64,000 nt of DNA from a virus. Below the pieces are notes generated by a model, which was not told the DNA's origin, did no database searches, and was given only the letters and a program-made list of their open reading frames with translations. The stretch covers positions 38,518 through 102,517 of the IMG/VR virus record IMGVR_UViG_3300021378_000009; one strand, given 5' to 3'. Positions 3,001 to 60,927 of the stretch are shown in pieces. The first letter of the stretch is position 1. Each line of letters opens with the position of its first letter. The position numbers and the translations under genes were made by a program.

Positions 3001-5024
3001 TCTCATCTACAGCTAAAAATAACACTAAGTTATCTTTTAAAACTTCAACAGGTGGAAACGCTGCTGCTGAAGTTATGTCAATAGATCACGTAGGATACCT
3101 TACAGTTTCTGGTGGATTAGGTGTAAGCGGTGATACATCTACTTTCTCTTCAGCAAACTCTACAGATCCTTTAGTTATAATTAAAAACACAACTAATGAT
3201 GCTAATGGTGCTAGACTAAGATTTGTGAAAGATAAGGGTGCTGCTGGTGCTGATAATGATGTTGCAGGTTTAATTGAATTCTATGCTGATGATGACAACC
3301 AGGATCAAATTAAATTTGCTGAAATAAAAGCACAAGTAGCTGATGCATCTAATGGAGCTGAAGGTGGTAAATTAACACTAAGCGTAGCTGAACATGATGG
3401 TACTTTAACGCAGGGCTTACTTCTATCTGATGGTTCTGCTGACGGTGAGATTGATGTAACAATTGGTGCGGGAACTAGTTCTACGTCAACAGTAGCAGGC
3501 AAGCTATCATTAGGTGGTATTACTTATGATTTCCCAACATCAGACGGCTCTGCTAATCAAGTGCTTAAAACAGATGGTTCTGGAAATCTTGATTGGGTTG
3601 CTCAATCTGGCGGTGGAAGTACTGCTGCTGATGATTTAACAGCTGGCGACGCTGCAGTAACAATCGCAACATCTTTAGGTAATATAACCATAGACGCTCA
3701 AGCGGGTGATTCTGACATCATATTTAAAGGTACAGATGGTTCATCTGATATAACTATGTTAACATTAGATGGTTCAGATGCTGGTACAGCAATATTTAAT
3801 CACGATATTAAAATGCCAACATCTGGCGCAGTATTATCAATGGGACCATCAGATGATGTTAAAATAACACATGTAGAAAACTCAGGTCTATTGATAACGT
3901 TAGATAGTGATGGAGACGGATCTTATGATCCTAAGTTAGAATTAAAAGCAGAACATACAGATGGATATGGTCCTAATTTAATTCTAAATCACTCTGAAAG
4001 TGATGGAGCAACTGATACTATATATAAAATATCAGGAAAAGCAAGAAACGATGCAGGTAATTCAAAGATTTTTACTTCTATAGATGGTAGAAAAATTACT
4101 CATGGAAACGGATCTGAAGATGGTCGTTTAATGCTTTACGTAATGGCAGCTGGTACTTTAACAACTGCAGTAAATATAGATGGTTCAAACGGTGGAACAA
4201 CATCATTTAGTAATGATATTAAACTAACTTCAGACTCTTCAGTAATATCCCTTGGTGCTGGTAACGATGCAACATTAACTCACGATGGAACAACTGGTCT
4301 TACAATTGCAGCAACTCCTATATCAATTGATTCAACTGGTGAGTTGCATTTAAACTCTACAACGGGTGATATTAAATTCCAAGATGGAGGTACAGATCAA
4401 CTAGCTTTAGACTTAGACGGAACTGCTGGCGAAGTTATAATGAAGCTAATGGTTGATTCTGATGACTTTGTATTCCAACAATATGATGGAACAGAAGTGT
4501 TTAGAGTTGAAGACAGTGGTGAATTTAATACTACGGGTAATCTTGTTATAAAAAATCAAAAAGAGATAAGACTAAGCGAAGGGTCAGGTAACGGAACAAA
4601 CTACTTAGGGTTTAAAGCTCCAGCTGCTGTTACAAGCAATGTTACATTTACTTTACCAGATGGTGATGGATCAGCAAATCAAGTTCTAAAGACTAATGGT
4701 AGTGGAACTTTATCTTGGACAGCAATGAGTGGTGGTGGCGGTGGATTTACATACTCTGCAATAACATCTACAACTACAGCTCAAGCTGAGTATCACTACA
4801 GCGTAAGCACTTCAGGCGGCGCAGTTACATTAAATCTTCCAGCAAGATCTGGTGTTACAGCAGGAAAAGAAATAAGAGTTAAACTAACTGCTGCAGGAAA
4901 TGACTTAACAATTGACGGAAATGGCTCAGAAACAATTGACGGATCCGCGACATTAGTTTTAAATGTAGCAAATCAGTCTGTAACATTAGTTGCCGGCAGC
5001 TCTACAAACTGGGAAGTTGTTTAA
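1..5024 (+). CDS. Giant modular tail fibre protein (5' end outside window)
   Basis: The reading frame is open from base 3 without a stop, so the gene begins upstream; the first in-window Met (base 150) is internal. The product is a Gly/Ser/Thr/Asp-rich beta-structured fibre made of repeated modules. A module containing ISGDAT and SASALKKMT occurs near bases 77-265 and again near 1640-1820. GSTAADD followed by AGDAAVTI occurs near 1850 and 3615, and SANQVLKT near 3550 and 4675. Bases about 929-1320 encode the widespread phage fibre module with TKSYVDSVAEGLDVKDSV and LLKDQSTASQNGIYVV. The C-terminus, with NLPARSG, ETIDGSATL and TNWEVV, resembles fibre tips. It probably forms a trimeric receptor-binding or whisker-like fibre on the virion. 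Three further virion-type genes follow. Assignment to fibre is firm; the exact attachment site is unknown. Confidence 0.85.
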   Translation, partial: DELLISDAGTIKRADFSVVRDAIFNDISGDATVAAGGALTIGANSVEKAMVNSNVVTGQTELSSKDDNGNDAVLVWDNSASALKKMTLNTLLSGTGSSGNLSNVVEDTTPQLGGSLDVNGQDIVSISNGNITLTPNGSGVVRIDGTSGIDMQSGSISVKNSGSVSNVKLYCEVGNAHYTQLQSAAHGSYSGNVTLTLPTSTGNLVGTGDSGTVTNTMLAGSITAAKMNNAIFADLETLGAPASDGQFIVATGSGAFAYESANTARTSLGLGTGSSPTFTSLTLSGQAAALAMNSQKITGLATPTADGDAATKSYVDSVAEGLDVKDSVHVASTANIASLSDGCDAGATIDGVTLVAGDRVLLKDQSTASQNGIYVVAADGVSPSRGADMEAASSAAGVFVFVEEGTANADAGFVCTSNAGADTVGTHSLAFTQFSGAGQITAGSALTKSGNTLNVAVDDSSIEVSSDALRVKASGITSAMLAGSIANSKLNQLTTANKVALSSLDLDGGTDIGADLVDADLIVVDDGAGGTNRKSALSRIKKYVYSSISGDATASDAGALTIASGAVETAMVNANVITGQTAETSIHNDDLVLIYDDSASALRKMTKANFVSGLGSGSTAADDISAGDAAVTITTTSGDTNIKSAAGDVLIEAENNAKKVTIKGDHESSTAIHLDGNANAASIVDIDAGVLDIDATAGITMDGTTLSIDGTDDSNLTVTGSAKDLDISVAGGGTQELRLTSAGTGASALHLNASAGGINIDSADMIDIDAADEITIDTTSADGHIAITSAHTAGEAILISANADAGSILNIDAGIMDVDVQGTYTLDATGISLDSDAASNFTTSSGALTLSGAGGVNINGGLGSTGVTISAAGAISADGRIITDDTTNATSTTDGAIQTDGGLSVALDVVIGDDLLLKSDNSVLHFGADSEVTLTHDPDVGLLLKNTETGDDKPVRLTLISGESELSNGEVVGSIDFKATDTTGFTGVISSIESVTKTTFSSTAKNNTKLSFKTSTGGNAAAEVMSIDHVGYLTVSGGLGVSGDTSTFSSANSTDPLVIIKNTTNDANGARLRFVKDKGAAGADNDVAGLIEFYADDDNQDQIKFAEIKAQVADASNGAEGGKLTLSVAEHDGTLTQGLLLSDGSADGEIDVTIGAGTSSTSTVAGKLSLGGITYDFPTSDGSANQVLKTDGSGNLDWVAQSGGGSTAADDLTAGDAAVTIATSLGNITIDAQAGDSDIIFKGTDGSSDITMLTLDGSDAGTAIFNHDIKMPTSGAVLSMGPSDDVKITHVENSGLLITLDSDGDGSYDPKLELKAEHTDGYGPNLILNHSESDGATDTIYKISGKARNDAGNSKIFTSIDGRKITHGNGSEDGRLMLYVMAAGTLTTAVNIDGSNGGTTSFSNDIKLTSDSSVISLGAGNDATLTHDGTTGLTIAATPISIDSTGELHLNSTTGDIKFQDGGTDQLALDLDGTAGEVIMKLMVDSDDFVFQQYDGTEVFRVEDSGEFNTTGNLVIKNQKEIRLSEGSGNGTNYLGFKAPAAVTSNVTFTLPDGDGSANQVLKTNGSGTLSWTAMSGGGGGFTYSAITSTTTAQAEYHYSVSTSGGAVTLNLPARSGVTAGKEIRVKLTAAGNDLTIDGNGSETIDGSATLVLNVANQSVTLVAGSSTNWEVV

Positions 5025-5097
5025 TAAAAGCTGTTAATATTCTCTTTGTGACTAATATATACATATAGGATAATAGAAATAGAAAGAATATCGTATC

Positions 5098-5739
5098 ATG
5101 AGTCATAATAAAATAACAGTAGCAGGTCAAAGTCCTAATAGTAGCGGAGAAATTACGCTTTCCGTAGAAAATTTATCAGATGTTACAATATCATCAGCTT
5201 CAGATACACAGGTCTTAAAATATAACGGTAGTGCTTGGGTAAATTCAGCTGCACCTTCAACTTCAACTAACTACATGTTAATTGGACAAGGTGAAACTAG
5301 TGCATACTCAAATAGCGGCGCTTCGAACATGAATCAAGACTCATATTTGAGAATATATGATACAGGTCCTATAAATAACATATCAGGAGCTTCTTTAACG
5401 CAACACTTATCTTCTAATTGGTATAGTGATATAACATTACCTGCAGGAAAGTATTTTGTACAATGTCAAACTTACGTAGAGTTTTCAGCTAGCGGTTATC
5501 TTTTATTCAATCTATCAAACACAAGTAATAATGATACAAAAAGCGCAGCAGGACTAATTGGTGATAATTCAACCTCATACTCAGACGGTAAAGCGACTAC
5601 AATACAATCATGGTTAAATTTGACATCCTCAACAACAATTGGTATTAGACTTGCTGCTGTTTCAAACGTAGACACAGTTGCAAATCAAGGTAACAAAATA
5701 TCAGAACATACTTACTTGCTTATAATGAAAATAAGCTAA
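5098..5739 (+). CDS. Small tail-fibre-type virion protein, paralogue 1
   Basis: 213 residues. The N-terminus contains NLSDVTISSASDTQVLKYNGSAW, a form of the linker found in phage fibres (LSDV, then QVLxYNGSxW). The C-terminal half has a C1q/TNF-like beta pattern, with DITLPAGKYFVQC followed by alternating hydrophobic strands and a final LIMKIS. The next gene has the same architecture, so the two are probably ancient paralogues. A receptor-binding tip or short fibre is the likely role, by domain type and by position directly after the giant fibre. The 73-bp gap upstream is AT-rich and holds no strong terminator. The ribosome binding site is weak (AGAAAGAA, well upstream), but no better start exists. 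Confidence 0.6.
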   Translation: MSHNKITVAGQSPNSSGEITLSVENLSDVTISSASDTQVLKYNGSAWVNSAAPSTSTNYMLIGQGETSAYSNSGASNMNQDSYLRIYDTGPINNISGASLTQHLSSNWYSDITLPAGKYFVQCQTYVEFSASGYLLFNLSNTSNNDTKSAAGLIGDNSTSYSDGKATTIQSWLNLTSSTTIGIRLAAVSNVDTVANQGNKISEHTYLLIMKIS

Positions 5740-5753
5740 AGAAGGTCATAATC

Positions 5754-6416
5754 ATGAGTCACTCTTTTACAAATATTAATAACAAGTCATCAAGCAATAT
5801 TACGTTAAATTTGTCTGATGTTACTCAAAGCGGAACACCCTCAAATAATGACGTAATAAACTTTAATGGCTCGTCTTGGCAAAACAGTAACATTCCAAGT
5901 AGTCTTACAAGTGATTTAAGTTTGAAATTTGGCTTATTTGGTTCTACAAATCTTGCGTGGGGTACAGGTGTATACTTATACGAAGTAGGTGACTACCTTT
6001 TAGCCCGACGTCATGAATCATATAATTTTACAGCTAGTAATTTTACGTGGAACAATGCAACATCAACAAATTCTGTACTATCTAATAGCAAGTGGTTTGA
6101 GTCAATTGATATACCTGAAGCTGGTAGATATCTATGCATGTATTCAGTTCATGCAGACAGAGAAAGTGGTACAGCAGCTTCAGCCACTTATAGATGGCAA
6201 TGTAACGCTGGATATTTTGGTTCAAAGTGTTATGTTGACAGTTTAGGTCAAAATTATGGAGGAATAGCTACAGGCATAGTGGACGCAGTTCAAAATGATA
6301 TACTGCGCCTTGTAGTTGTAGCAACAGATAGCGCTGGTCAAGGTTCAGGCTCTTTAGACTTGCATCATGCAACAACACAAAAATCAATGTGTACAACAAT
6401 AATAAAAATTGGATAA
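5754..6416 (+). CDS. Small tail-fibre-type virion protein, paralogue 2
   Basis: 220 residues, preceded by a good AAGGT ribosome binding site. The N-terminal NLSDVTQSGTPSNNDVINFNG and SSWQNS repeat the layout of the preceding gene. The C-terminal half carries SIDIPEAGRYLCMYSV, which aligns with DITLPAGKYFVQCQTYV of paralogue 1, and ends in TTIIKIG. This half looks like a C1q/TNF-type jelly roll. There are four Cys residues in the C-terminal half, more than in paralogue 1. Likely a fibre tip or receptor-binding accessory; the second copy may widen host recognition, which is inference. The identification is by motif only. Confidence 0.58.
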   Translation: MSHSFTNINNKSSSNITLNLSDVTQSGTPSNNDVINFNGSSWQNSNIPSSLTSDLSLKFGLFGSTNLAWGTGVYLYEVGDYLLARRHESYNFTASNFTWNNATSTNSVLSNSKWFESIDIPEAGRYLCMYSVHADRESGTAASATYRWQCNAGYFGSKCYVDSLGQNYGGIATGIVDAVQNDILRLVVVATDSAGQGSGSLDLHHATTQKSMCTTIIKIG

Positions 6417-6430
6417 AAAAGGACAAAGAA

Positions 6431-6787
6431 ATGTGGATAAAAGTAAAATGCTCACAAGATATAGAAAAAGGCGACGTATTATCATATGATTCATCACAAC
6501 AATTATGGAATAAATCTAGTTCTTTGGCATCTCCATTAGGAGTTGCTAGAAAAGATGCATTTTTAAAGCCTGAAACTGATGGTGTTTATATTGTAGAAAT
6601 ACAATTGCAAGGTCAAGTTGAAGCAAAAGCCTCTAGAGATATACCTGATGAAGGTGGTGAGTTAAATGTAGAAAATGGTATGGTTTATGTTGACAACAAT
6701 GCAAATCATGATGGCATAATTTGTCCAAACTTTTTAGATCAGCCTAGCAGGTTATCAGGAAATCTAGTTACAATTATTATCAGATAA
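6431..6787 (+). CDS. Small beta-rich virion-type protein (possible decoration protein)
   Basis: 118 residues from ATG 6431, which follows AAAAAGGACAAAG; an in-frame ATG at 6389 overlaps the previous gene and has no ribosome binding site. The sequence reads as a compact beta barrel. The N-terminal part, with IEKGDVLSYD and then SPLGVARKDA, recalls the small decoration or cement proteins of the DUF2190 type: introduce value, then revert to a default. This similarity is weak and from memory of the family pattern, not a search. It sits at the end of the fibre cluster, before the first sizeable regulatory gap. It could equally be a small fibre accessory. Confidence 0.5.
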   Translation: MWIKVKCSQDIEKGDVLSYDSSQQLWNKSSSLASPLGVARKDAFLKPETDGVYIVEIQLQGQVEAKASRDIPDEGGELNVENGMVYVDNNANHDGIICPNFLDQPSRLSGNLVTIIIR

Positions 6788-6801
6788 TTTTTTTAAATTA
6801 A

Positions 6802-6830
6802 TTGTATAAATTCACTTTTTTTTATATAAT
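6802..6830 (+). promoter_or_regulatory. Candidate sigma70-like promoter
   Basis: TTGTAT at 6802-6807 is followed after exactly 17 bases by a perfect TATAAT at 6825-6830. The ribosome binding site of the nuclease gene lies 11 bases further on. A second reading of the same stretch is a late-type TATAAATT at 6805-6812. The -35 matches the consensus in only three of six positions and the region is AT-rich, so chance is a real possibility. Its position at the junction between fibre genes and the nuclease/glycosyltransferase genes is what one would expect of a separate transcription unit. Confidence 0.35.
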
Positions 6831-6853
6831 ATTAAATGAAAGTGAGGTCTGTT

Positions 6854-7687
6854 ATGACTATTTTAAAAGAGCATGTCTCTTATTCAGAAGTTAAGCAATG
6901 GAAAGAATGTGGGTGGAGACATAAGCTTCTATATATTGATAAAATTAGAACATTTGAAGAATCTCCACACTTGCACTATGGAACAATAATACATGATGCT
7001 TGCGAACATTACTTAAAAACGCAAGAGCTCAAAATAGAAGAAGCTAAAGAAAAGATAACGCAGTCATGGGATGAGCATGGTTTTGACTCTAGCGATTATA
7101 TCATACTCCAGACAAATAGAGCAAAATTACAAGGTTGGAAGTATAAACATGACAACTTAAACAATTGGTTAACATGGGCAGAAAGCAGTATAAGTGCATT
7201 ACCTGAATTTTTAGATAAAACATTTCCAGAATGGGAATATGTTGCTGCTGAAGATGCTTTGTATGAGAGCATTGAAAGATTTGATACAAAATTTAAAGGA
7301 TATATAGATTGTATAATAAAAGTTCCATTTAAAGATGATTATAAATACTGGATAATTGATTGGAAGACAGCAAGCGGAAGAGGGTGGTCTATTGATAAGC
7401 AGAGGGACTTTCTTGTACAAGCACAATTAATACTATATAAATACTTCTGGGGAACAAAGAATGATATACCGATGAACAATATTAAATGTGGATTTGTTTT
7501 ATTAAAGAAAGTTAAGAACAAAAACAAAACATGTCAACTTATTAATTTATCAAGCGGACCAAAGTCAATTGATAAATCAAGAAAAATGATAACAAACATG
7601 ATTACAACAGTGAATAGAAGACTTTACCTTAAGAATAGAAATTCTTGTAAGTTTTGTGTATTTTTTGAAACAGAAAATTGCACTTAA
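6854..7687 (+). CDS. PD-(D/E)XK exonuclease of the Cas4/RecB type with Fe-S cluster cysteines
   Basis: 277 residues from ATG 6854, chosen because GTGAGG lies just upstream; an ATG at 6836 has no ribosome binding site. The core carries His47 (IIHDAC), Asp152 (GYIDCI), Asp169 and Lys171 (IIDWKTA) and the QAQL motif at 189-192, the signature of RecB-family nucleases. Cys19 near the N-terminus and Cys265, Cys268 and Cys276 at the C-terminus have the one-plus-three spacing that holds a 4Fe-4S cluster in Cas4 and AddB. It should be a DNA exonuclease used in recombination or host DNA breakdown. There are no cas1, cas2 or repeat arrays nearby, so a CRISPR role is not supported. Confidence 0.82.
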   Translation: MTILKEHVSYSEVKQWKECGWRHKLLYIDKIRTFEESPHLHYGTIIHDACEHYLKTQELKIEEAKEKITQSWDEHGFDSSDYIILQTNRAKLQGWKYKHDNLNNWLTWAESSISALPEFLDKTFPEWEYVAAEDALYESIERFDTKFKGYIDCIIKVPFKDDYKYWIIDWKTASGRGWSIDKQRDFLVQAQLILYKYFWGTKNDIPMNNIKCGFVLLKKVKNKNKTCQLINLSSGPKSIDKSRKMITNMITTVNRRLYLKNRNSCKFCVFFETENCT

Positions 7688-7698
7688 GGGGATACCGA

Positions 7699-8946
7699 TT
7701 GAAAAAGAAGATAATTTTAATATCAGATCACATAATGATGAATAGTGGTGTAGCTGTTCAAGGAAGACATTTAGTTGAAGGTCTATTAGAAACAGGAAAA
7801 TATAAATTTATACAAATTGGTGCAGCTATGAGTCATGATGACTATAGACCTGTAAAAGTTAAGGAAGATTTAATAATAATACCAACTAAGGGATTTGGTG
7901 ACAAAGATATTATTAGATCTTTGCTTGTAACTGAAAAGCCTGATGCTATAGTATTGTTTAATGACCCTAGATTTTTTGATCATATCTTTGAGATGGAAGA
8001 CGAGATACATCAAGTCTGTCCAATACTTTATTGGCATGTTTGGGATAATAGACCTTATCCAAGCTTTAACGAACACGTTTATATGTCTATTGATACGATA
8101 AATTGTATATCATACCTAACATATAATTTAATATCAGAAAATCACAGTAATAAAACGAATTATATACCACACTCACTTCCTGATTATTTATTTTATAAAT
8201 TAAAAGAAGAAGATATTAAAAGCTACAAAGAAAAGATATTAGGGAAAGAAAAGTTAGATCATTTTACTGGTCTGTGGATTAATAGGAATACTAGAAGAAA
8301 AAGACCAGCTGATGTGTTAAAATCATGGCAAATGTTCTTGTTTGATTTAGAAGAAAAATTTGGTCATAAAAATGCAACATTAATAATGCATACAGACCCA
8401 GAAGATTCTGTAGGTGTTAACTTATTTGAAGTTGCAAAAAATCTTAAAATAAAAGAAAATGTTTGTTTTTCTACTGACGCAATAGATTTTGATGAAGTAA
8501 ATATATTACACAACATATCTGACTTTTATATAAATATAAGTTTTGCTGAAGGTTTTGGATTAGGCACTTTGGAAGCTATGAAAGTAGGTAACCCAATAAT
8601 TGCTGTTAAAACTGGAGGACAAACAAGACAAGTAATTAATCACTTTGACAATACAATAAATGGTTTTGCATTAGAGCCCGATGTGACTACAACATCAGGA
8701 TCACAAAGTATTTATTATATTAATGAAGACTATGTGAAAACAGAAAAAGTTTCAAAAGCAATATTTTCTATGTACTGTATGGGGAAAGAATGTAGAAAAG
8801 AAATCGGTAATAAAGCAATAGAATATGTCAATAAAGAATTTAACTACAAAGATATGATTAAAAAATGGGATTTATCAATAGAGGATACAATTAAAAACTG
8901 GGAATCAAAATACTCTAGAGTTGAAATCTATAGATTAGGAGATTGA
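7699..8946 (+). CDS. GT-B glycosyltransferase, family 4-like, copy 1
   Basis: 415 residues from TTG 7699. The start is set by AAGGGGA at 7686-7692, six bases upstream; no ATG or GTG fits. The N-terminal SGVAVQGRHLVEGLL is the glycine-rich acceptor-side loop of GT-B enzymes. The C-terminal NISFAEGFGLGTLEAMKVG followed by PIIAVKTGG is the nucleotide-sugar binding E-x7-E region. The middle, with EDEIHQVCPILYWHVWDNR and LWINRNTRRKRP, belongs to a type often found in marine phages. Acceptor unknown: virion proteins, DNA bases or host surface sugars are all possible. The next gene is a second glycosyltransferase, so they may act in series. Confidence 0.8.
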   Translation: MKKKIILISDHIMMNSGVAVQGRHLVEGLLETGKYKFIQIGAAMSHDDYRPVKVKEDLIIIPTKGFGDKDIIRSLLVTEKPDAIVLFNDPRFFDHIFEMEDEIHQVCPILYWHVWDNRPYPSFNEHVYMSIDTINCISYLTYNLISENHSNKTNYIPHSLPDYLFYKLKEEDIKSYKEKILGKEKLDHFTGLWINRNTRRKRPADVLKSWQMFLFDLEEKFGHKNATLIMHTDPEDSVGVNLFEVAKNLKIKENVCFSTDAIDFDEVNILHNISDFYINISFAEGFGLGTLEAMKVGNPIIAVKTGGQTRQVINHFDNTINGFALEPDVTTTSGSQSIYYINEDYVKTEKVSKAIFSMYCMGKECRKEIGNKAIEYVNKEFNYKDMIKKWDLSIEDTIKNWESKYSRVEIYRLGD

Positions 8947-8948
8947 TT

Positions 8949-10142
8949 TTGAAAAAAGTTCTACTAAAAGGACCTCTACTAAGCAATTCTGGGTATGGAG
9001 TCCATTCTAGACAGGTTTTTGAATTTTTAAACTCTAGAAAAGATATCGATTTAAAATGTGATATTACTCCTTGGGGGAATACTTCTTGGCGACTTAATCA
9101 ATATAAAGATAAAAGCTACAAAAATATACCGATAATTTTAGAAAAGTATATGTTGGAAAAAGATATTTCTAATTATAAATTTGACGAATCATATCAAGTA
9201 TGCTTTCCTAGTGAATGGAGAAGAATAAGTGAATTTGATGTTGGTATAACTGCTGGAATTGAAACAACAATTTGTTGTTCAAATTGGTTGCATGATATTA
9301 ATTTAATGAATAAAATAATAGTCCCATCTGAATTTACAAAAAAAGTTTTCATGAATTCTTCTAATTATTATAATATAGAATTAAGTACAGAAATAATTGT
9401 AATACCAGAATACTATCATGAAGAATTTGATGTCAAAGACAATATAAACACTTTTAATTTGGATATGATTAAAACTAAAAAAAATGTTTTAATATCAGGA
9501 CAACTTACATCTTTAAAAGAAAAACTTGATAGAAAAAATATATTCAAAACAATTGAAATAGTTGCAAGAGAGGTATCTAGTTTTAACGATGTTGGTTTGA
9601 TTATAAAAACAAATTTAGGCAAGAATTCAAGAAAAGATTTCATGAGACTAAAAACAGTTATGAACAAGTATTACAAAGAATTAAAAAAAGAGTTAGGTTC
9701 ATGTCTACCTGAAATTTATTTGATTCATGGTGATATGAGTCCATTTGAACTTAAAAGTTTATATGAAAGTGAAAAAGTATCTTGCTTTATTTCTTGCACT
9801 AGAGGTGAAGGATTCGGGCTGCAATTTTTAGAGTCTGCTATATGTAATTTACCTATAATAGCAACAAATTGGTCAGCTTACACAGAATTTCTAGACTTTT
9901 TCTTAAAAGTAGACTGTGATATAACTGAAGTAGATGTAGAAAAGATAGATAATCAATTATTTGTATTAAACTCAAAGTGGGCAGAATTCAATGAGTATTC
10001 TTTAAAAGAAAAGATACGAGAAGTATTTACAAAAGACTATAGAAAAGATGTTAAAGTTATAGATCAAAGAAATAAATTAGTAAACAAAATGTCTAAAACA
10101 TCAATAATTAATATTTATAAGCAAAAACTAGACAGGTTTTAA
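8949..10142 (+). CDS. GT-B glycosyltransferase, family 4-like, copy 2
   Basis: 397 residues from TTG 8949, seven bases after AGGAG; another TTG at 8943 is too close to that site. It follows the stop of copy 1 by two bases. The N-terminal LLSNSGYGVHSRQVFEFL is a GT-B acceptor-domain loop, and TRGEGFGLQFLESAICNLP is the donor-binding E-x7-E region. WGNTSWRLN and FDVGITAGIETT are shared with phage glycosyltransferases that usually come in tandem with the copy 1 type. The two enzymes are only distantly alike and therefore probably differ in donor or acceptor. No sugar-nucleotide synthesis gene is present, so host donors are likely. Confidence 0.75.
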   Translation: MKKVLLKGPLLSNSGYGVHSRQVFEFLNSRKDIDLKCDITPWGNTSWRLNQYKDKSYKNIPIILEKYMLEKDISNYKFDESYQVCFPSEWRRISEFDVGITAGIETTICCSNWLHDINLMNKIIVPSEFTKKVFMNSSNYYNIELSTEIIVIPEYYHEEFDVKDNINTFNLDMIKTKKNVLISGQLTSLKEKLDRKNIFKTIEIVAREVSSFNDVGLIIKTNLGKNSRKDFMRLKTVMNKYYKELKKELGSCLPEIYLIHGDMSPFELKSLYESEKVSCFISCTRGEGFGLQFLESAICNLPIIATNWSAYTEFLDFFLKVDCDITEVDVEKIDNQLFVLNSKWAEFNEYSLKEKIREVFTKDYRKDVKVIDQRNKLVNKMSKTSIINIYKQKLDRF

Positions 10143-42373: not shown

Positions 42374-42922
42374 ATGAATCTAGGATTAGATATATCTACG
42401 TCAATCATTGGTGTTTGTTTATTTGACGATGCGAAGCTTGAACTTATGGATAAAATTGATTTGACTAAAGTAAAGTGTATTTTTGAAAAAGCTAAAGTTG
42501 TTGAAGATTATTTCAATAATTTAGTAAACAATTATAAAATTACAAAAATATACATTGAGGATATACTTCAGGCGTTTAGAAGAGGCATGTCTTCTTCAAA
42601 GACACTTATGCAACTTGCACGATTTAATGGGGTCGTATCAAACATTGTATATCGCAGCTGTGGTTTAATCCCTGTTTATATTAATGTTAATACCGCAAGG
42701 AAACAATTAAATATTAAAATAGATAAAAACAGTGATATAGACAAGAAAGAACAGGTTCTTGATTGGGTAGATAATGATTTAGGTGGTTATGTGTGGCCTA
42801 AAAAGACAATAAGTCGTGGGAAAAATAAAGGTTGTGTAAAATATGAAAAATTTTGTTATGATATGTCTGACTCTTATGTAATATGTAAAGCGGGTATAAA
42901 ATTAAATGGACATAATCAATAA
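42374..42922 (+). CDS. RuvC-like Holliday junction resolvase (RNase H fold)
   Basis: 182 residues. Asp6 (LGLDISTSIIGV), Glu62 (IYIEDIL) and Asp163/Asp166 (YDMSDSYVICKAG) give the D-E-D set of the RNase H fold, with the spacing of RuvC-type resolvases. It should cut branched DNA before or during packaging, the role played by gp49 (endonuclease VII) in T4, which is an unrelated fold. The primase gene starts 17 bases before its stop. The position next to primase and Mre11-Rad50 supports a recombination role. Confidence 0.8.
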   Translation: MNLGLDISTSIIGVCLFDDAKLELMDKIDLTKVKCIFEKAKVVEDYFNNLVNNYKITKIYIEDILQAFRRGMSSSKTLMQLARFNGVVSNIVYRSCGLIPVYINVNTARKQLNIKIDKNSDIDKKEQVLDWVDNDLGGYVWPKKTISRGKNKGCVKYEKFCYDMSDSYVICKAGIKLNGHNQ

Positions 42923-43868
42923 AAGACTTGATTTTTTCGACAGCTTTATTGACAATTATCAATTAGGAAAAGATGGAGTTAACTTAAATATTTGGTGTCC
43001 TTTCTGTAGACATGAATCAAAAAATAAACTTAAGTTAAGTATACACCTAGAAAAAGGATTTTATCATTGTTGGGTTTGTGACAAAAAAGGATCTAACATA
43101 CCTAACCTTTTAAAGTATATTGATAAAAGTAAAATTGAAGAATCTAAAAGATATTTTAAATCACACAGTAAAAAGTTTTCTTTGTTTGAAGAAGAAATTG
43201 AAGAAGAGTATATTAATATCTCTCTTCCTGATAATTTTAAGTTTTTTATAGAAAACTTTAACCCAATAGATCCAGATGCAAGAGATGTTTTTAAGTATGC
43301 TATAAAAAGAGGCACAAATAAACATAAACTATGTATGTTAAGAATGGGATATTCACTTGATAGAGATTTTAAAAGATACTTAATACTACCGAGTTATGAT
43401 AAAAGTGGAAGCTTAAACTACTATGTAAGTAGAAATATTGATGTAGATACGCATAATTCCTATAAATATAAAAATGCTTCAGTCCCTAAAAAGAATATAA
43501 TATTTAATGAATTAAACATATGTTGGGAAAAGCCACTGACTATCGTAGAAGGTCCTTTAGATTTAATTAAAACAAATGATAATTCTACATGTCTATTAGG
43601 ATCTTCTTTAACTGAAGATATGATATTATTTCAGCAAATAATTAAAAATAAAACTAAAGTTAACTTAGCACTAGACAGCGATGCTTATGCTAAAGCCCTG
43701 TATATTGCGAAACTTTTACGAGGTTATGATATAGATGTAAGAATAGTAGACACAAGAGGCGGAGAAGACGTAGGTGATATGAGTCATAAAAAATTCTCAA
43801 AAAGGCTTGAAGATTCTAAAGAATATTCATATAATGATAGTATATTATCTAAAATAAGGATGCTATGA
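42906..43868 (+). CDS. DNA primase, DnaG type
   Basis: 320 residues, close to T4 gp61 (342). Cys31, Cys34, Cys55 and Cys58 (CPFC, CWVC) form the zinc-binding domain. The Toprim domain carries Glu215 (LTIVEGPLDLI) and Asp257/Asp259 (LALDSDAYAKA). It makes RNA primers for lagging strand synthesis with a helicase that is not in the window. Overlaps both neighbours (17 and four bases), a sign of tight translational coupling with the resolvase and Mre11-Rad50. Confidence 0.88.
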   Translation: MDIINKRLDFFDSFIDNYQLGKDGVNLNIWCPFCRHESKNKLKLSIHLEKGFYHCWVCDKKGSNIPNLLKYIDKSKIEESKRYFKSHSKKFSLFEEEIEEEYINISLPDNFKFFIENFNPIDPDARDVFKYAIKRGTNKHKLCMLRMGYSLDRDFKRYLILPSYDKSGSLNYYVSRNIDVDTHNSYKYKNASVPKKNIIFNELNICWEKPLTIVEGPLDLIKTNDNSTCLLGSSLTEDMILFQQIIKNKTKVNLALDSDAYAKALYIAKLLRGYDIDVRIVDTRGGEDVGDMSHKKFSKRLEDSKEYSYNDSILSKIRML

Positions 43869-46800
43869 AAAACAGTAAAAAATTTAGATGTTTACATATA
43901 TCTGATGTTCACTTTAGAGGTTTAACTAGACATAATGAATACAGACTTGTTTTTGAAAAATTATTTAAAAAAGCAATAGAGCTAAGTCCAAATATAATCT
44001 TTATAGGCGGCGATATTGTTCATTCAAAAACACAAGGAATTAGTCCTGAACTTATTGATATTTTAACATGGTGGTTTAATTCATTATCAAAAATAGCGCC
44101 TACGCATGTTATTCTAGGGAATCATGACGGTCTAATACTTAATGAAAACAGACAAGATGCAATATCTCCTATTATTAATGCGTTAGACAATAAAAACATA
44201 TTTCTATATAAAAAAAGCGGTACATATTCAACTGGTATAAAGGGATTTAATTGGTGTGTATTTTCTTGTTTTGATGAAGAAGGTTGGAAAGATGTAGAAA
44301 TCGTAGAAGAAGAAGTAAATATTGCATGTTTTCATGGCGGAGTCTTAGGATCTTTGACAGATACAGACTGGAATATAAAAGGAGAAGTTTCTTTAAGCTT
44401 TTTCAATAATTTTGATTTCGGGTTTTTAGGTGACATACACAAGATACAATATCTTGATGATGAAAAAAGAATAGCTTATCCAGGAAGTACAATTCAACAA
44501 AACTATGGTGAAGACATAGAAAAAGGATTTTTATATTGGGAAATAAACAGTAGATATGACTATAATTCTGAATTTTTTAGTATTGAAAACCCTTTTCCAC
44601 ACATTACTATTAATTGGGAAGGCAACATTAAAAACACAATCGATGCCTTACGCAATGTCAGTAAAAACAGTAGAATAAGAATAAGATCTAAAGATAATAT
44701 AACGCAATCAGAAATTAATCTATTGCATGAGTACTTAAAGAGTGAAAAAAAAGCAAAGGAAATAGTTTACCAGAATCTAGGTATAAAAAACTGTATAGAA
44801 GAAGATAATGTTATAGAAGAAACTACTATAAACATAAAATCCGATTTAGACAGAATTAATTTGTTAAAAACATACTTTAAAGATGAAGATGAAAAATTAA
44901 TTTGTGAGATAGATAAACGTTATAGAGAACATTTAGATAATGTATCAAAAGACTATTCTGTTTACAATAGTAATAAATGGTCAATTAAGTCTGTAAGCTT
45001 TGACAATACTTTTGGATACGGTAAAAACAATCTTATAGACTTTGAAAAACTCAACGGTATTGTAGGTATATTTGGAAACAATAGATGTGGTAAATCATCT
45101 ATACCCGGCACTATAATGTATGGTTTGTTCAATACTACTGATAGAGGTTCTATAAAGAACGAGTATATAGTTAACTCAAGAAAAGGATCATGTAAAGCAA
45201 AGATAAAATTTACAGCTTCAGGAAAAGAATACGAGATAGTAAGAGAAACTATAAAAAAGTCGAACAAGAACAATAAAATATCAACATCAACATCTTTAAA
45301 GCTTACAAATAATGCAGGCGAAGAATTAAAAGATAAGACTGAAGAGCAGCGAAGAGAAACAGAAAAAGTTCTAAGAGGCATAATTGGAGCTCACGAAGAA
45401 TTTTTATGTACAACTTTTGCATCTCAAGGTGAAACTAATTCTTTTATTAAAGAGAAAACAACAGCAAGAAAAAAGATATTATCTAAGTTTTTAAATCTAG
45501 ACATATATGAAGAGCTACATAAACTATCTAGAGATGAGTATATTATTGTAAAGAACAAGCTTAAAGAGTTAAATGAAAAGCAATGGCAAAACATTGTTGC
45601 TGATGAAAAATCAAAAATAATCAGTCTAAATCTTAAAAACAAAGAGCTTGAATCAAATATTATTGAAATAAGAAGTTTAGAACTAGAAAAAAATATATCA
45701 CTTAATAAAATAAATAATCTTTCTGATAAAGATTTAGTAAGTCAAGTAAAAACAGAAAGAGAAATTTTATTACTAAAGGATAACAATGAAAGCTTAGTAC
45801 TCGGATTAGAAGATAAAAATAAAAAGCTAGAAAATTTTAAAGTTAAGGCTGACAAAATAAAAAGCTTTAAAGCAGACTTTCCTTTAAAGAAACTAGAAAG
45901 TGACAAAGAAAAACTTAATATTTTAAGCAACAATCTTGTTGATTTAAAGAATAAAATATCTAATATCAAGTTAAAAGAAAAGAATGCTAACAATCAAATA
46001 AAAACTTTAAGCGAAGTTCCATGTGGCGATAAATTTAAAAGTTGTATGTTTATTAAAGCTGCGCATAAAGCTAAAGATGACATTCCTGATATTAAAAAAG
46101 CAACAAAAAGTTTACAAGGTTCAGTTTTAGAAGTCCAAGAAATAATAAAGAGTCTTGAAAAAGAAGAAATAACAAACAAATTAAAAAAGTATAGTGATCT
46201 ATTAAATAAAGAGTATGCTTTAAACATTGATATAAAAAACATTAAAAACGAAATCTTAAGAAATGAAAAAAGTCTAGAAGATAATATTGAAGAAATCGAA
46301 GCAAAGCGATTGTTGCTAGAATCAATTTCTAATAGTGACAATGATAGTTTAATCAAAGAAATAGAAAAGATAAAAACAGAATTAAAAGAGATATCAAAAA
46401 ACATAAATAATTGCGAAATCCAAAAACAAGAAAATTTAAAAAATGTTTTTAGAATAGAAAACAATATTGAAAGTCTTGAAGAAGAAGAAAAAACTTATGA
46501 AGATTTATTAAATAAATGGCATGTATTAGACTTGTTTAGCAGATCATTATCTAAAAAAGATGGTATTCCTACTATGTTAATAAACTCTTCTTTACCTAAG
46601 ATTAATAAAGAAATAAAAAATATTTTAAGCGGTGTATGCAACTTTGATATTGAGCTTGTTGATGAAAAGAATGGTAATTTAAATATTTATATTGATTATG
46701 GCGAATCAAAAAGAATAATAGAGTGTTGTAGCGGGATGGAAAAAATGATTTCATCTATCGCCATAAGAGTTGCGCTTATAAACATATCAAACCTTCCCAA

Positions 46801-47002
46801 GTCAGATATGTTTATAATTGATGAAGGTTTTGGTGCATTAGACAGCACAAATATTGAAGCTTGTGGTAGACTTTTAAAAAGCTTGAAAAAATACTTTAAA
46901 ACTATTTTAATAATATCACATATTGATACTATAAAAGACATAGTTGATAAAAACTTGGAAATAACTTTAAAGGGCAAAGATTCACATGTTAGATTTGAAT
47001 AA
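43865..47002 (+). CDS. Single-chain Mre11-Rad50 (gp47-gp46) recombination nuclease/ATPase
   Basis: 1045 residues that join two proteins which are separate in T4 (gp47 and gp46) and in cells (SbcD and SbcC). Residues 1-250 are the Mre11-type phosphoesterase: SDVH (D14, H16), GGD (D50), GNHD (85-88), H157 and GDIH (189-192). After a linker of about 120 residues, the Rad50 part begins with Walker A GNNRCGKSS (404-412). A coiled coil with a hook (C720, C727) follows, then the signature SGMEK (956-960) and Walker B MFIIDEGFGALD (982-993). All catalytic residues that I can check are present. It processes double-strand ends for recombination-dependent replication. No stop or frameshift separates the two halves. 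Confidence 0.9.
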   Translation: MKNSKKFRCLHISDVHFRGLTRHNEYRLVFEKLFKKAIELSPNIIFIGGDIVHSKTQGISPELIDILTWWFNSLSKIAPTHVILGNHDGLILNENRQDAISPIINALDNKNIFLYKKSGTYSTGIKGFNWCVFSCFDEEGWKDVEIVEEEVNIACFHGGVLGSLTDTDWNIKGEVSLSFFNNFDFGFLGDIHKIQYLDDEKRIAYPGSTIQQNYGEDIEKGFLYWEINSRYDYNSEFFSIENPFPHITINWEGNIKNTIDALRNVSKNSRIRIRSKDNITQSEINLLHEYLKSEKKAKEIVYQNLGIKNCIEEDNVIEETTINIKSDLDRINLLKTYFKDEDEKLICEIDKRYREHLDNVSKDYSVYNSNKWSIKSVSFDNTFGYGKNNLIDFEKLNGIVGIFGNNRCGKSSIPGTIMYGLFNTTDRGSIKNEYIVNSRKGSCKAKIKFTASGKEYEIVRETIKKSNKNNKISTSTSLKLTNNAGEELKDKTEEQRRETEKVLRGIIGAHEEFLCTTFASQGETNSFIKEKTTARKKILSKFLNLDIYEELHKLSRDEYIIVKNKLKELNEKQWQNIVADEKSKIISLNLKNKELESNIIEIRSLELEKNISLNKINNLSDKDLVSQVKTEREILLLKDNNESLVLGLEDKNKKLENFKVKADKIKSFKADFPLKKLESDKEKLNILSNNLVDLKNKISNIKLKEKNANNQIKTLSEVPCGDKFKSCMFIKAAHKAKDDIPDIKKATKSLQGSVLEVQEIIKSLEKEEITNKLKKYSDLLNKEYALNIDIKNIKNEILRNEKSLEDNIEEIEAKRLLLESISNSDNDSLIKEIEKIKTELKEISKNINNCEIQKQENLKNVFRIENNIESLEEEEKTYEDLLNKWHVLDLFSRSLSKKDGIPTMLINSSLPKINKEIKNILSGVCNFDIELVDEKNGNLNIYIDYGESKRIIECCSGMEKMISSIAIRVALINISNLPKSDMFIIDEGFGALDSTNIEACGRLLKSLKKYFKTILIISHIDTIKDIVDKNLEITLKGKDSHVRFE

Positions 47003-47288: not shown

Positions 47289-47660
47289 ATGGAATATGAA
47301 TTAATACAATCTTTAGGGAATTGTTTAGACAATGTATATAACAACTATGCAGAGTCTCATGATAGAAGAACAGTTGCTTCTATAAAAAATGACTTGTTAT
47401 GCATAGAGTATAGAACTATATTAAGAGCTGCTAAAGATGTTGAGCTTAGAAGTCAAATAGATGCTTTAAAATCTGAAACTATGCAAATGATAACTTCTCG
47501 TCTTAAATTAATAAAAGAAGAGTTTAAAGAAACTTCAGGTAGATCTTTAAAAACTAAAAAAGATTCAGAGTCAGATTCAATGGAAACTTTAACTGTATCA
47601 CCATACAACCCAATAAGAACTATTAAATATAAGTTCTGTGTTTGTTATACGGTTTCATAA
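47289..47660 (+). CDS. Small helical protein in small-terminase position
   Basis: 123 residues; residues 1-90 are predicted helical (SLGNCLDNVYNNYAES, DVELRSQIDALKSETMQMI), followed by a Ser/Lys-rich linker and a distinct tail, SPYNPIRTIKYKFCVCYTVS. It ends one base before the large terminase start. In T4 this position is held by gp16, the small terminase, also a small helical protein. I see no DNA-binding signature that would prove it. The start has GAAAGG upstream. TerS is the best guess by position only. Confidence 0.55.
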   Translation: MEYELIQSLGNCLDNVYNNYAESHDRRTVASIKNDLLCIEYRTILRAAKDVELRSQIDALKSETMQMITSRLKLIKEEFKETSGRSLKTKKDSESDSMETLTVSPYNPIRTIKYKFCVCYTVS

Positions 47661-47661
47661 T

Positions 47662-49293
47662 ATGCCTAAGAAGCTTTCCAAACAAAACCAAATAAGTGAA
47701 ATAATAAAGTGCGGTAAAGATCCTGTATACTTTATGAACAAGTATTTAAAAATACAACATCCTATGAAGGGGCTTATAAATTTTAATACTTTTGATTTCC
47801 AAGACGATTGTGTTAAAGACTTTAACGATCATAGATTTAACATAATACTTAAATCAAGACAGCTAGGACTATCAACACTAGTTGCTGCTTATTCTGTTTG
47901 GCAATCTATTTTCTATAAAGAAAAAAACATTTTAATTATAGCAACAAAGCTAGCAGTAGCGCAAAACTTTATAAGAAAAGTAAAAACTTATATAAAAAGC
48001 ATGCCTAAGTGGCTGCTAGTTCCAGTAATTGTTGCAAATAATAAACAGCAAATAGAGTTTTCCAATGGATCACAAATAAAAGCTGTACCAACGTCAGAAG
48101 ATGCAGGTCGTTCAGAAGCGCTTTCTTTGCTAATTGTTGATGAAGCTGCTTTTGTAAGAAACTTTGATGATTTATGGATGGGTTTATATCCAACATTATC
48201 TACAGGCGGTAGAGCTATTATTTTATCTACTCCAAATGGCGTAGGTGGTCAATATCATGAGTTATATACAAAAGCTGAGCTTAAAGAAAACAAGTTTAAT
48301 CCTATAAAGCTTATGTGGGATGTACATCCTGAACGTGGTGATGAGTGGTTTGAAAAAGAAACCAAGAACATGTCTAAAAAGCAAATATCGCAAGAGTTAT
48401 TGTGCGACTTTTCATCTTCAGGAGACACATTTTTATCACAAGATGTTTTAGAAAAGCTAAGAATAGTAACAAAAAGTCCAGTTGAGAAAAGTGGACCAGA
48501 GATGAATGTGTGGTATTGGGAGTATCCTATTGAAGGAAATAATTACGTAGCTTCTGCAGATGTTTCTAGAGGAGATAGCGGAGATTACTCTACATTTCAT
48601 ATAATAAATGTAAAAACAATGTCAATAGCAGTTGAGTTTAAAGGAAAAATACCACCAGATAATTTTGCATCTTTGTTATATGATATTGCTAGAAGGTTTA
48701 ATAAAGCATTGATTTGCCCTGAAAATAATGCATATGGTTATACAGTTTTATCTAAACTTGGAGATCTTGGATATGATAATATTTACTTCTCTTCTGAACG
48801 TGAGAAGTATAAATTTTTATATGGTGAAGAAAATAATATAGGAAAAGCTGGATTTAACACTAACAAAGATAGTAGAGAAAAAATATTAGCAAACTTTGAA
48901 GAATCTCTAAGGAATGGAAGAATAAAAACAAAATCAACAAGGTTAGTATCAGAATTAAAAACTTTTGTTTGGAATGGTAAAAAAGTAGGCGCTATGAAAG
49001 GATATAACGATGATCTTATTATGTCTTTAGCTATAGGATGCTGGCTTTCTGACAGTAATAGTGATTCTTATAACTCAACACAGCTCGAATACGCAGATGC
49101 GCTACTCAAAGGAATGGAAGTAAATAATACAAATATTAATAAAACAAATATTTCTCCTTTCTATAATAGTAAAGAAACAGTTGTTAATCCTTTTATACCC
49201 ACATTCATGGGTGAAAAAAGATTCTCAGACAATAATAAGAAAATAACAAAAAACAATCCTCTTGGGGATTTAAGCTGGCTAATAGGAAAATAA
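47662..49293 (+). CDS. terL: Terminase large subunit, gp17-like
   Basis: 543 residues from ATG 47662; the frame is open from GTG 47638, but that start would lie in the upstream gene. The ATPase has Walker A KSRQLGLST (64-72), Walker B LLIVDEAAF (D160, E161) and the coupling motif STPNG (189-193). The RNase H-like nuclease domain has D300 (ASADVSRGDSGDYS), E354 (ICPENNAYGY) and D450/D451 (YNDDLIMSLAIG). This is the packaging motor that cuts and pumps DNA through the portal. T4 gp17 has 610 residues. The portal gene follows without a gap. Confidence 0.95.
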   Translation: MPKKLSKQNQISEIIKCGKDPVYFMNKYLKIQHPMKGLINFNTFDFQDDCVKDFNDHRFNIILKSRQLGLSTLVAAYSVWQSIFYKEKNILIIATKLAVAQNFIRKVKTYIKSMPKWLLVPVIVANNKQQIEFSNGSQIKAVPTSEDAGRSEALSLLIVDEAAFVRNFDDLWMGLYPTLSTGGRAIILSTPNGVGGQYHELYTKAELKENKFNPIKLMWDVHPERGDEWFEKETKNMSKKQISQELLCDFSSSGDTFLSQDVLEKLRIVTKSPVEKSGPEMNVWYWEYPIEGNNYVASADVSRGDSGDYSTFHIINVKTMSIAVEFKGKIPPDNFASLLYDIARRFNKALICPENNAYGYTVLSKLGDLGYDNIYFSSEREKYKFLYGEENNIGKAGFNTNKDSREKILANFEESLRNGRIKTKSTRLVSELKTFVWNGKKVGAMKGYNDDLIMSLAIGCWLSDSNSDSYNSTQLEYADALLKGMEVNNTNINKTNISPFYNSKETVVNPFIPTFMGEKRFSDNNKKITKNNPLGDLSWLIGK

Positions 49294-59532: not shown

Positions 59533-60927
59533 GTGAAGTGTAAAATGAATAACTGTAATTTTGAAGGTACAGGTAAAGATTTTAGCAATCACTTAAAAAA
59601 AGAACACAGCTTAAAAAGTAAAGAATATACAAGAAAGTATATTTATAGCAATAGAGTTGGCTGTCACAATTGTGGTAAAGAAACAAATTACTCATCATTT
59701 AAATTTAAAAAGTACTGTAAAGATTGTGCAAAAATTGCTATGAAAGAAGGTGGTAGGAAAGGTGGTAAAGCGCAAGCTTGGAATAAGGGTAAAACTCATA
59801 AAGACGACTCAAGAATATTAAGAAGATTTGGTGAAGACAATCACTTTTACAATAAAAAGCATTCTGAAGAGACTTTAAACAAAATGAGTTTTGCAAAAAG
59901 ATTAGGTGGAAAAGAAATATTAAATAGGATATTTGAAAGAAACGAAGAGTTTGAAATATTAACTCCTTTAGCAGAGTATTTTAGTAGACAACGTCAATAT
60001 CTAGAATTTAAGTGTAAAAAGTGTGACTTTGTATCAAAAAAGACATTGCAATCATTTGAAAGAGGGTCTTTATGTCCTAAGTGTTTTCCTTATACAAAGT
60101 CAAAAGGAGAACTAGAAATTTATAATTATATTGTTAGTTTAGGTATAGAAGATGTTATTAGTGGTGATAGAATACAAATAAAGCCAAGAGAAATAGACAT
60201 CTGTTTGAAGCAGAATCAATTCGGAATAGAATTTAATGGTTTATATTGGCACAGTGATATAGTTGATTCTACGTCAAAGCGTGATATGCTAAATAAAACA
60301 ATTGAATGCAAATCGGTCAACATCAAATTAATGCACATATTTTCAGACGAATGGATGTTTAAAGAAGACATATGCAAGAGCATGATAAGAAATAGAATAG
60401 GGTTATGTAATAGAGTATGGGCAAGAAAATGTGAAGTAAGAGAAGTTAATAAAAAAGACTTTGATGAGTTTATGAATAGATGTCATATAAGCGGTTCAGT
60501 GAATAGTAGTATAAGGTTAGGACTTTATTATGATGACGAATTAGTATCAGCTATAGGATTTAGAAAGCCAAGACAGAAAAAGTGGAAAGGATACTATGAA
60601 ATAAGCAGATTTGCATGTGAATTAGACAATGTTGTTGTAGGTGGATTAAGTAAATTATTAAAACATTATATGAGAATTTATAACAATAAAAAAATAATGA
60701 CTTACGCTGATAGAAGATTTGGTGAAGGATTAGGGTATGGAAAAGTAGGTTTTGATTTGGTTGGAGATAGTGGAATAGATTATTGGTATTCTGATGGAAT
60801 TCAAAGATTTGATAGATTTATAATCAAAACAGATGGAGAAATGACAGAAAGAGAAAAAGCAGCTGAAATGAAATTGTACAAGGTATGGGGTTGTGGAAGT
60901 AATATTTGGGTATATAATGATAATTAG
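59533..60927 (+). CDS. VSR-like (EDxHD) free-standing homing endonuclease with NUMOD3 and zinc fingers
   Basis: 464 residues from GTG 59533, six bases after a perfect AGGAGG. The order is: C2H2-like finger (C3, C8, H20, H25), CxxC pair (C44/C47, C62/C65), NUMOD3-type DNA-binding repeat (WNKGKTHKDDS to NHFYNKKHSEETLNKMS, about 83-119), another zinc site (C161/C164, C181/C184), then the nuclease core. That core has KGELEIYNYI (E193), PREIDI (E220, D222) and IEFNGLYWHSD (E233, H240, D242), the arrangement of VSR-like homing nucleases of the EDxHD type. The C-terminal 150 residues are an added domain common in phage homologues. It sits behind the capsid gene terminator; the capsid gene is intact, so this is an independent mobile gene. 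Confidence 0.85.
   Translation: MKCKMNNCNFEGTGKDFSNHLKKEHSLKSKEYTRKYIYSNRVGCHNCGKETNYSSFKFKKYCKDCAKIAMKEGGRKGGKAQAWNKGKTHKDDSRILRRFGEDNHFYNKKHSEETLNKMSFAKRLGGKEILNRIFERNEEFEILTPLAEYFSRQRQYLEFKCKKCDFVSKKTLQSFERGSLCPKCFPYTKSKGELEIYNYIVSLGIEDVISGDRIQIKPREIDICLKQNQFGIEFNGLYWHSDIVDSTSKRDMLNKTIECKSVNIKLMHIFSDEWMFKEDICKSMIRNRIGLCNRVWARKCEVREVNKKDFDEFMNRCHISGSVNSSIRLGLYYDDELVSAIGFRKPRQKKWKGYYEISRFACELDNVVVGGLSKLLKHYMRIYNNKKIMTYADRRFGEGLGYGKVGFDLVGDSGIDYWYSDGIQRFDRFIIKTDGEMTEREKAAEMKLYKVWGCGSNIWVYNDN

Follow-up and report, generated by a model that had tools for sequence, protein, structure and literature searches.

Mre11 (SbcD) and Rad50 (SbcC) are encoded by separate genes in T4 (gp47/gp46) and in SPO1-like phages (SbcD/SbcC), where the same two enzymes have the same presumed role. 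The locus described here raises the question of whether a phage can make both as one polypeptide, and of what such a protein would do. The window, a stretch of 64,000 nucleotides from a 102.5-kb viral contig, holds at 43865..47002 on the plus strand a single ATG-started open reading frame of 1045 codons, uninterrupted throughout. A calcineurin-like phosphoesterase with Mre11 motifs is present at the N terminus of the 1045-residue product and shares the frame with a Rad50/SbcC ABC ATPase that has the Walker A, signature and Walker B motifs. Pfam searches placed the family Metallophos at residues 8-175 (E 3e-11) and AAA_23 at 380-584 (E 5e-7), the SbcC-like phage family PHROG 77 spans residues 248-1042 (E 9e-46), and PDB sequence and profile searches with the protein matched both SbcD/Mre11 and SbcC/Rad50 chains. 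An earlier note on this DNA had read the frame as a phosphoesterase followed by an ABC ATPase with a coiled coil and had assigned the two parts to Mre11 and Rad50; the open reading frame and the agreement of the Pfam, PHROG and PDB searches confirm this reading.

As sbcD and sbcC are neighbours in T4-like and SPO1-like phages, a single indel might in principle join them, and a sequencing or assembly error at 44,600-45,000 could then mask a stop and restart, a possibility raised in the note. Scanning IMG/VR with the fusion protein gave 67 relatives, and scanning with an alignment gave at least 591; we retained 80 of these. The full protein is spanned by one stop-free frame in 128 of 147 IMG/VR loci (116 distinct proteins), with identities of about 38-73% for the full-length relatives; the other 19 relatives are incomplete because their contigs end within the gene, and no split version was found among the 147 loci. 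Several isolate genomes likewise annotate the fusion as one CDS. Comparison of residues 229-371, where the two halves join, with the nearest relative (73% identical) gave a dN of 0.28 and a dS of 2.12 (dN/dS about 0.13), and thus this region is translated and conserved. The frame kept in all relatives and the purifying selection across the join rule out the suspected frameshift, and we reject an artefact of sequencing or assembly, the chance of which we consider negligible. Plasmid homologues amounted to one match, in a Listeria record and to the C-terminal ATPase part only. A scan of genome contigs found eight loci on metagenome-assembled contigs; these are probably phage DNA binned with hosts, because most have the same primase upstream and some have a terminase or portal gene.

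To describe the domains of the protein we used an AlphaFold model built from 41 sequences (mean pLDDT 82.5, pTM 0.49), in which a phosphoesterase, a cap, a disordered loop, a helix pair, a linker, an ABC N-lobe, a coiled coil and a C-lobe follow one another; given the pTM of 0.49, the arrangement of these domains in space is unreliable. All features given below lie on the plus strand. The Mre11/SbcD phosphoesterase domain covers residues 7-228 (43883..44548), as judged from the Pfam match, conservation and motif comparison with split relatives. It is followed by the Mre11 capping domain, residues 229-305 (44549..44779), which is placed by profile alignments and is rich in strands, with a helix, in the model. 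Beyond the disordered loop, a helix-loop-helix at residues 327-357 (44843..44935; helices 327-337 and 343-357) is the probable Rad50-binding domain of Mre11, based on the model and on alignment with T. maritima Mre11.

The stretch between the catalytic halves had been described in the note as a 120-residue linker, a description that does not hold. Most of it consists of Mre11 C-terminal domains, because a profile built from the first 371 residues continues to match SbcD/Mre11 over both cap and helix pair, as far as residue 397 in E. coli SbcD and 377 in T. maritima Mre11; the segments matched from the cap onwards are SbcD 209-397 in E. coli and 164-304 in S. aureus, and Mre11 204-377 in T. maritima. 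The linker proper is reduced to about 13 residues (358-370; 44936..44974), placed with low confidence by the model, where the mean pLDDT is 60 in residues 361-370. This length agrees with the published estimate of 9–12 residues (PMC3175470), and the retention of the cap and helix-loop-helix with a short linker is as expected for proteins like Mimivirus R555.

The Rad50 N-lobe (44975..45499), supported by Pfam, PDB, alignment and model, contains the Walker A motif GNNRCGKS at residues 404-411 and the Q-loop residue Q521. Model helices define a coiled coil with an ascending arm at residues 546-717 (45500..46015) and a descending arm at residues 728-894 (46046..46546). The C-lobe (46547..46999), located by PDB searches and alignments, carries the signature SGMEK (956-960), the Walker B/D-loop sequence IIDEGFGALD (984-993) and H1019. 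The CXXC zinc hook of Rad50 is absent from the apex of the coiled coil; in its place the alignment and model show a loop (46016..46045) with C720 and C727, forming a CX6C motif. Both cysteines are invariant in the 41-sequence alignment, and the loop sits at the tip of the coil in the model. About 110 of 116 distinct relatives have the CX6C apex (exceptions with PCGDxFPxC were counted by eye). CDCFEHxPTC or CX18C stands at this position in a few relatives, and CXXC in Microcystis phage Mel-JY01 and in LR756501.

Foldseek searches of the PDB with the model matched E. coli SbcCD and eukaryotic Mre11-Rad50. Among viral models, whole-length matches were obtained to proteins of Harvfovirus, Tupanvirus and Catovirus, which are relatives of Mimivirus (E 1e-57 to 1e-48), and Tenacibaculum phage proteins also matched over their full length; these two groups are the closest whole-chain structural matches. 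The comparison covered these relatives of Mimivirus in place of R555 itself, and identity to their proteins is 20-23%.

The fusion of Mre11 and Rad50 is not new, although the note had implied that it was. It was described in 2011 (Yoshida, Claverie and Ogata; PMC3175470) in Mimivirus R555, Bacillus phage 0305phi8-36, several bacteria, plasmids and eukaryotes, and our search for one-chain homologues found it to be widespread, in several cultured phages and in hundreds of environmental viral contigs. The gene is a well-supported additional case of this fusion type. By their published description, R555-like fusions share with it the order Mre11 then Rad50, a GDxxH motif, an Asp in place of His206 and a short linker, whereas R555 is a 1351-residue protein of a giant amoeba virus and the window fusion a 1045-residue protein of a tailed phage. 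R555 homologues were argued to be abundant in aquatic viruses, with some scaffolds also carrying phage primases (PMC3175470). The available part of a survey of jumbo phages (PMC7824862) gives SbcC/SbcD as near universal and does not mention the fusion.

Among isolates, Microcystis phage Mel-JY01, Tenacibaculum phages PTm1 and pT24, Chryseobacterium phage MA9V-1 and Sphingomonas phage PAU encode one-chain proteins joined in the same order; their annotations read AAA-domain protein or metallo-phosphoesterase, and they are at most 31% identical to the window fusion. Those of PTm1, pT24, MA9V-1 and PAU are longer (about 1300 residues) and have DxQ in motif I where the window fusion has DxH; the sequence after Walker B is also altered in these four (DEIS/DEIT). 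From their sequences, the two changes together suggest changed or lost catalysis in the PAU and flavobacterial-phage fusions. LR756508.1 represents an uncultured phage of 484 kb; its fusion gene (4944-9169) is interrupted just after GDIH by a 305-residue reading frame that has a TnsA-like nuclease domain and CxxC motifs like those of zinc fingers. In sequence this resembles an intron or homing-endonuclease insertion; Rfam intron models gave no match to it.

An unrooted tree was built from 23 fusions and 6 split sequences, with the LR756508 pieces flanking the insertion joined. It sets every sampled fusion apart from every split pair sampled (SH-aLRT 99.3, UFBoot 100). With a small split sample of six, this topology fits a single fusion event in the sampled group; in the 2011 analysis, which included cellular sequences, the fusions were not monophyletic (PMC3175470).

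The metal site bears directly on whether the protein is still a nuclease. The predicted ligands D14, H16, D50, N86, H87, H157, D190 and H192 are invariant in all 51 aligned full-length proteins. The fusion has the GDxxH form of motif II (D50/H53) and an Asp, D190, at the position of P. furiosus His206, the two changes reported for R555 (PMC3175470). D190 replaces the His usual in SbcD: E. coli SbcCD, which shares its fold with both halves of the fusion and consists of two chains, has GHIH, compared with GDIH here. As a substitution of a metal-binding His, D190 could alter activity, and its occurrence in every aligned R555-like relative, together with the DxQ motif of the flavobacterial-phage and PAU fusions, would be consistent with a nuclease-dead chain acting only as an ATP-driven end tether. 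We consider this quite improbable. The remaining ligands are invariant in the window fusion and its relatives, Asp is also able to bind metal, the Asp at this position is strictly conserved and shows no drift, and phage PSTCR5, whose split protein is T5-like, has it there as well.

In the neighbourhood of the gene, a RuvC-like Holliday-junction resolvase (42374..42922; PHROG, synteny) and a primase with a DnaG zinc finger (42906..43868; Pfam, PHROG) lie upstream, the latter overlapping the start of the fusion by four bases, and the terminase large subunit (47638..49293; PHROG) lies downstream. The primase is upstream in 115 of the 126 loci with enough upstream DNA, and the terminase downstream in 54 of the 59 with enough downstream DNA, some contigs being represented twice; the order RuvC–primase–fusion–terminase is fixed across relatives. 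Portal, head protease, major head and baseplate genes are also in the window, which identifies the virus as a contractile-tailed phage. A homing/HNH-endonuclease family protein adjoins the major head gene (59533-60927), two adjacent glycosyltransferase-family genes occupy 7678-10142, and Rfam searches of the window found no intron models or other convincing RNA. In T4, gp46/gp47 act in the degradation of host DNA as well as in recombination, and the fusion might thus serve chiefly in host-genome degradation or counter-defence and not in phage replication. Nearly all relatives have the gene flanked by primase/RuvC on one side and terminase on the other, a replication-to-packaging neighbourhood, which makes this unlikely.

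The domain matches, the single frame, the two sets of catalytic motifs and their conservation across 51 full-length relatives, the fold, the single-frame relatives, the gene order and the R555-like substitutions are best explained by a fused Mre11-Rad50 DNA-end-processing machine of a contractile-tailed phage, within the Mimivirus-R555-like family. We hold this explanation to be very probable; within it, the assembly, the nuclease and ATPase activity and the role in replication are inferred by analogy with T4 gp47/gp46 and SbcCD. The fusion is most likely a phage DNA-end-processing nuclease, acting like T4 gp47/gp46. Mre11-Rad50 usually assembles as M2R2. Two fusion chains would dimerise through their ABC heads, as an ATP sandwich, and through their Mre11 domains, giving M2R2 from two polypeptides; it is plausible that fusion fixes the Mre11:Rad50 stoichiometry in this way, as the earlier note had proposed. 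ATP binding and hydrolysis would open the Mre11 site so that DNA ends and hairpins are resected or cut, while the coiled coil with its two-cysteine tip may tether ends or pair with a second molecule. The 3' ends so made would be recombinogenic and serve recombination-dependent replication as well as repair, as with T4 gp47/gp46. A scan of genes on this fragmentary contig turned up no RecA/UvsX partner, so recombination-dependent replication is without direct support here.

What is new in the fusion lies in small details: the conserved CX6C apex hook in place of CXXC, and the fixed RuvC–primase–fusion–terminase gene order. It is a tentative possibility that these phages form a large aquatic clade with a one-chain Mre11-Rad50 in which the CX6C apex and the metal-site Asp-for-His are both departures from the enzyme of cells; such a protein would process ends as a self-contained machine and tether them in a different geometry. 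With more than 100 full-length genes, compared with a few partial ones in 2011, one-chain Mre11–Rad50 is confirmed as the usual form among a large set of aquatic tailed phages, and this compact single-chain protein could suit structural studies of the Mre11–Rad50 cycle.
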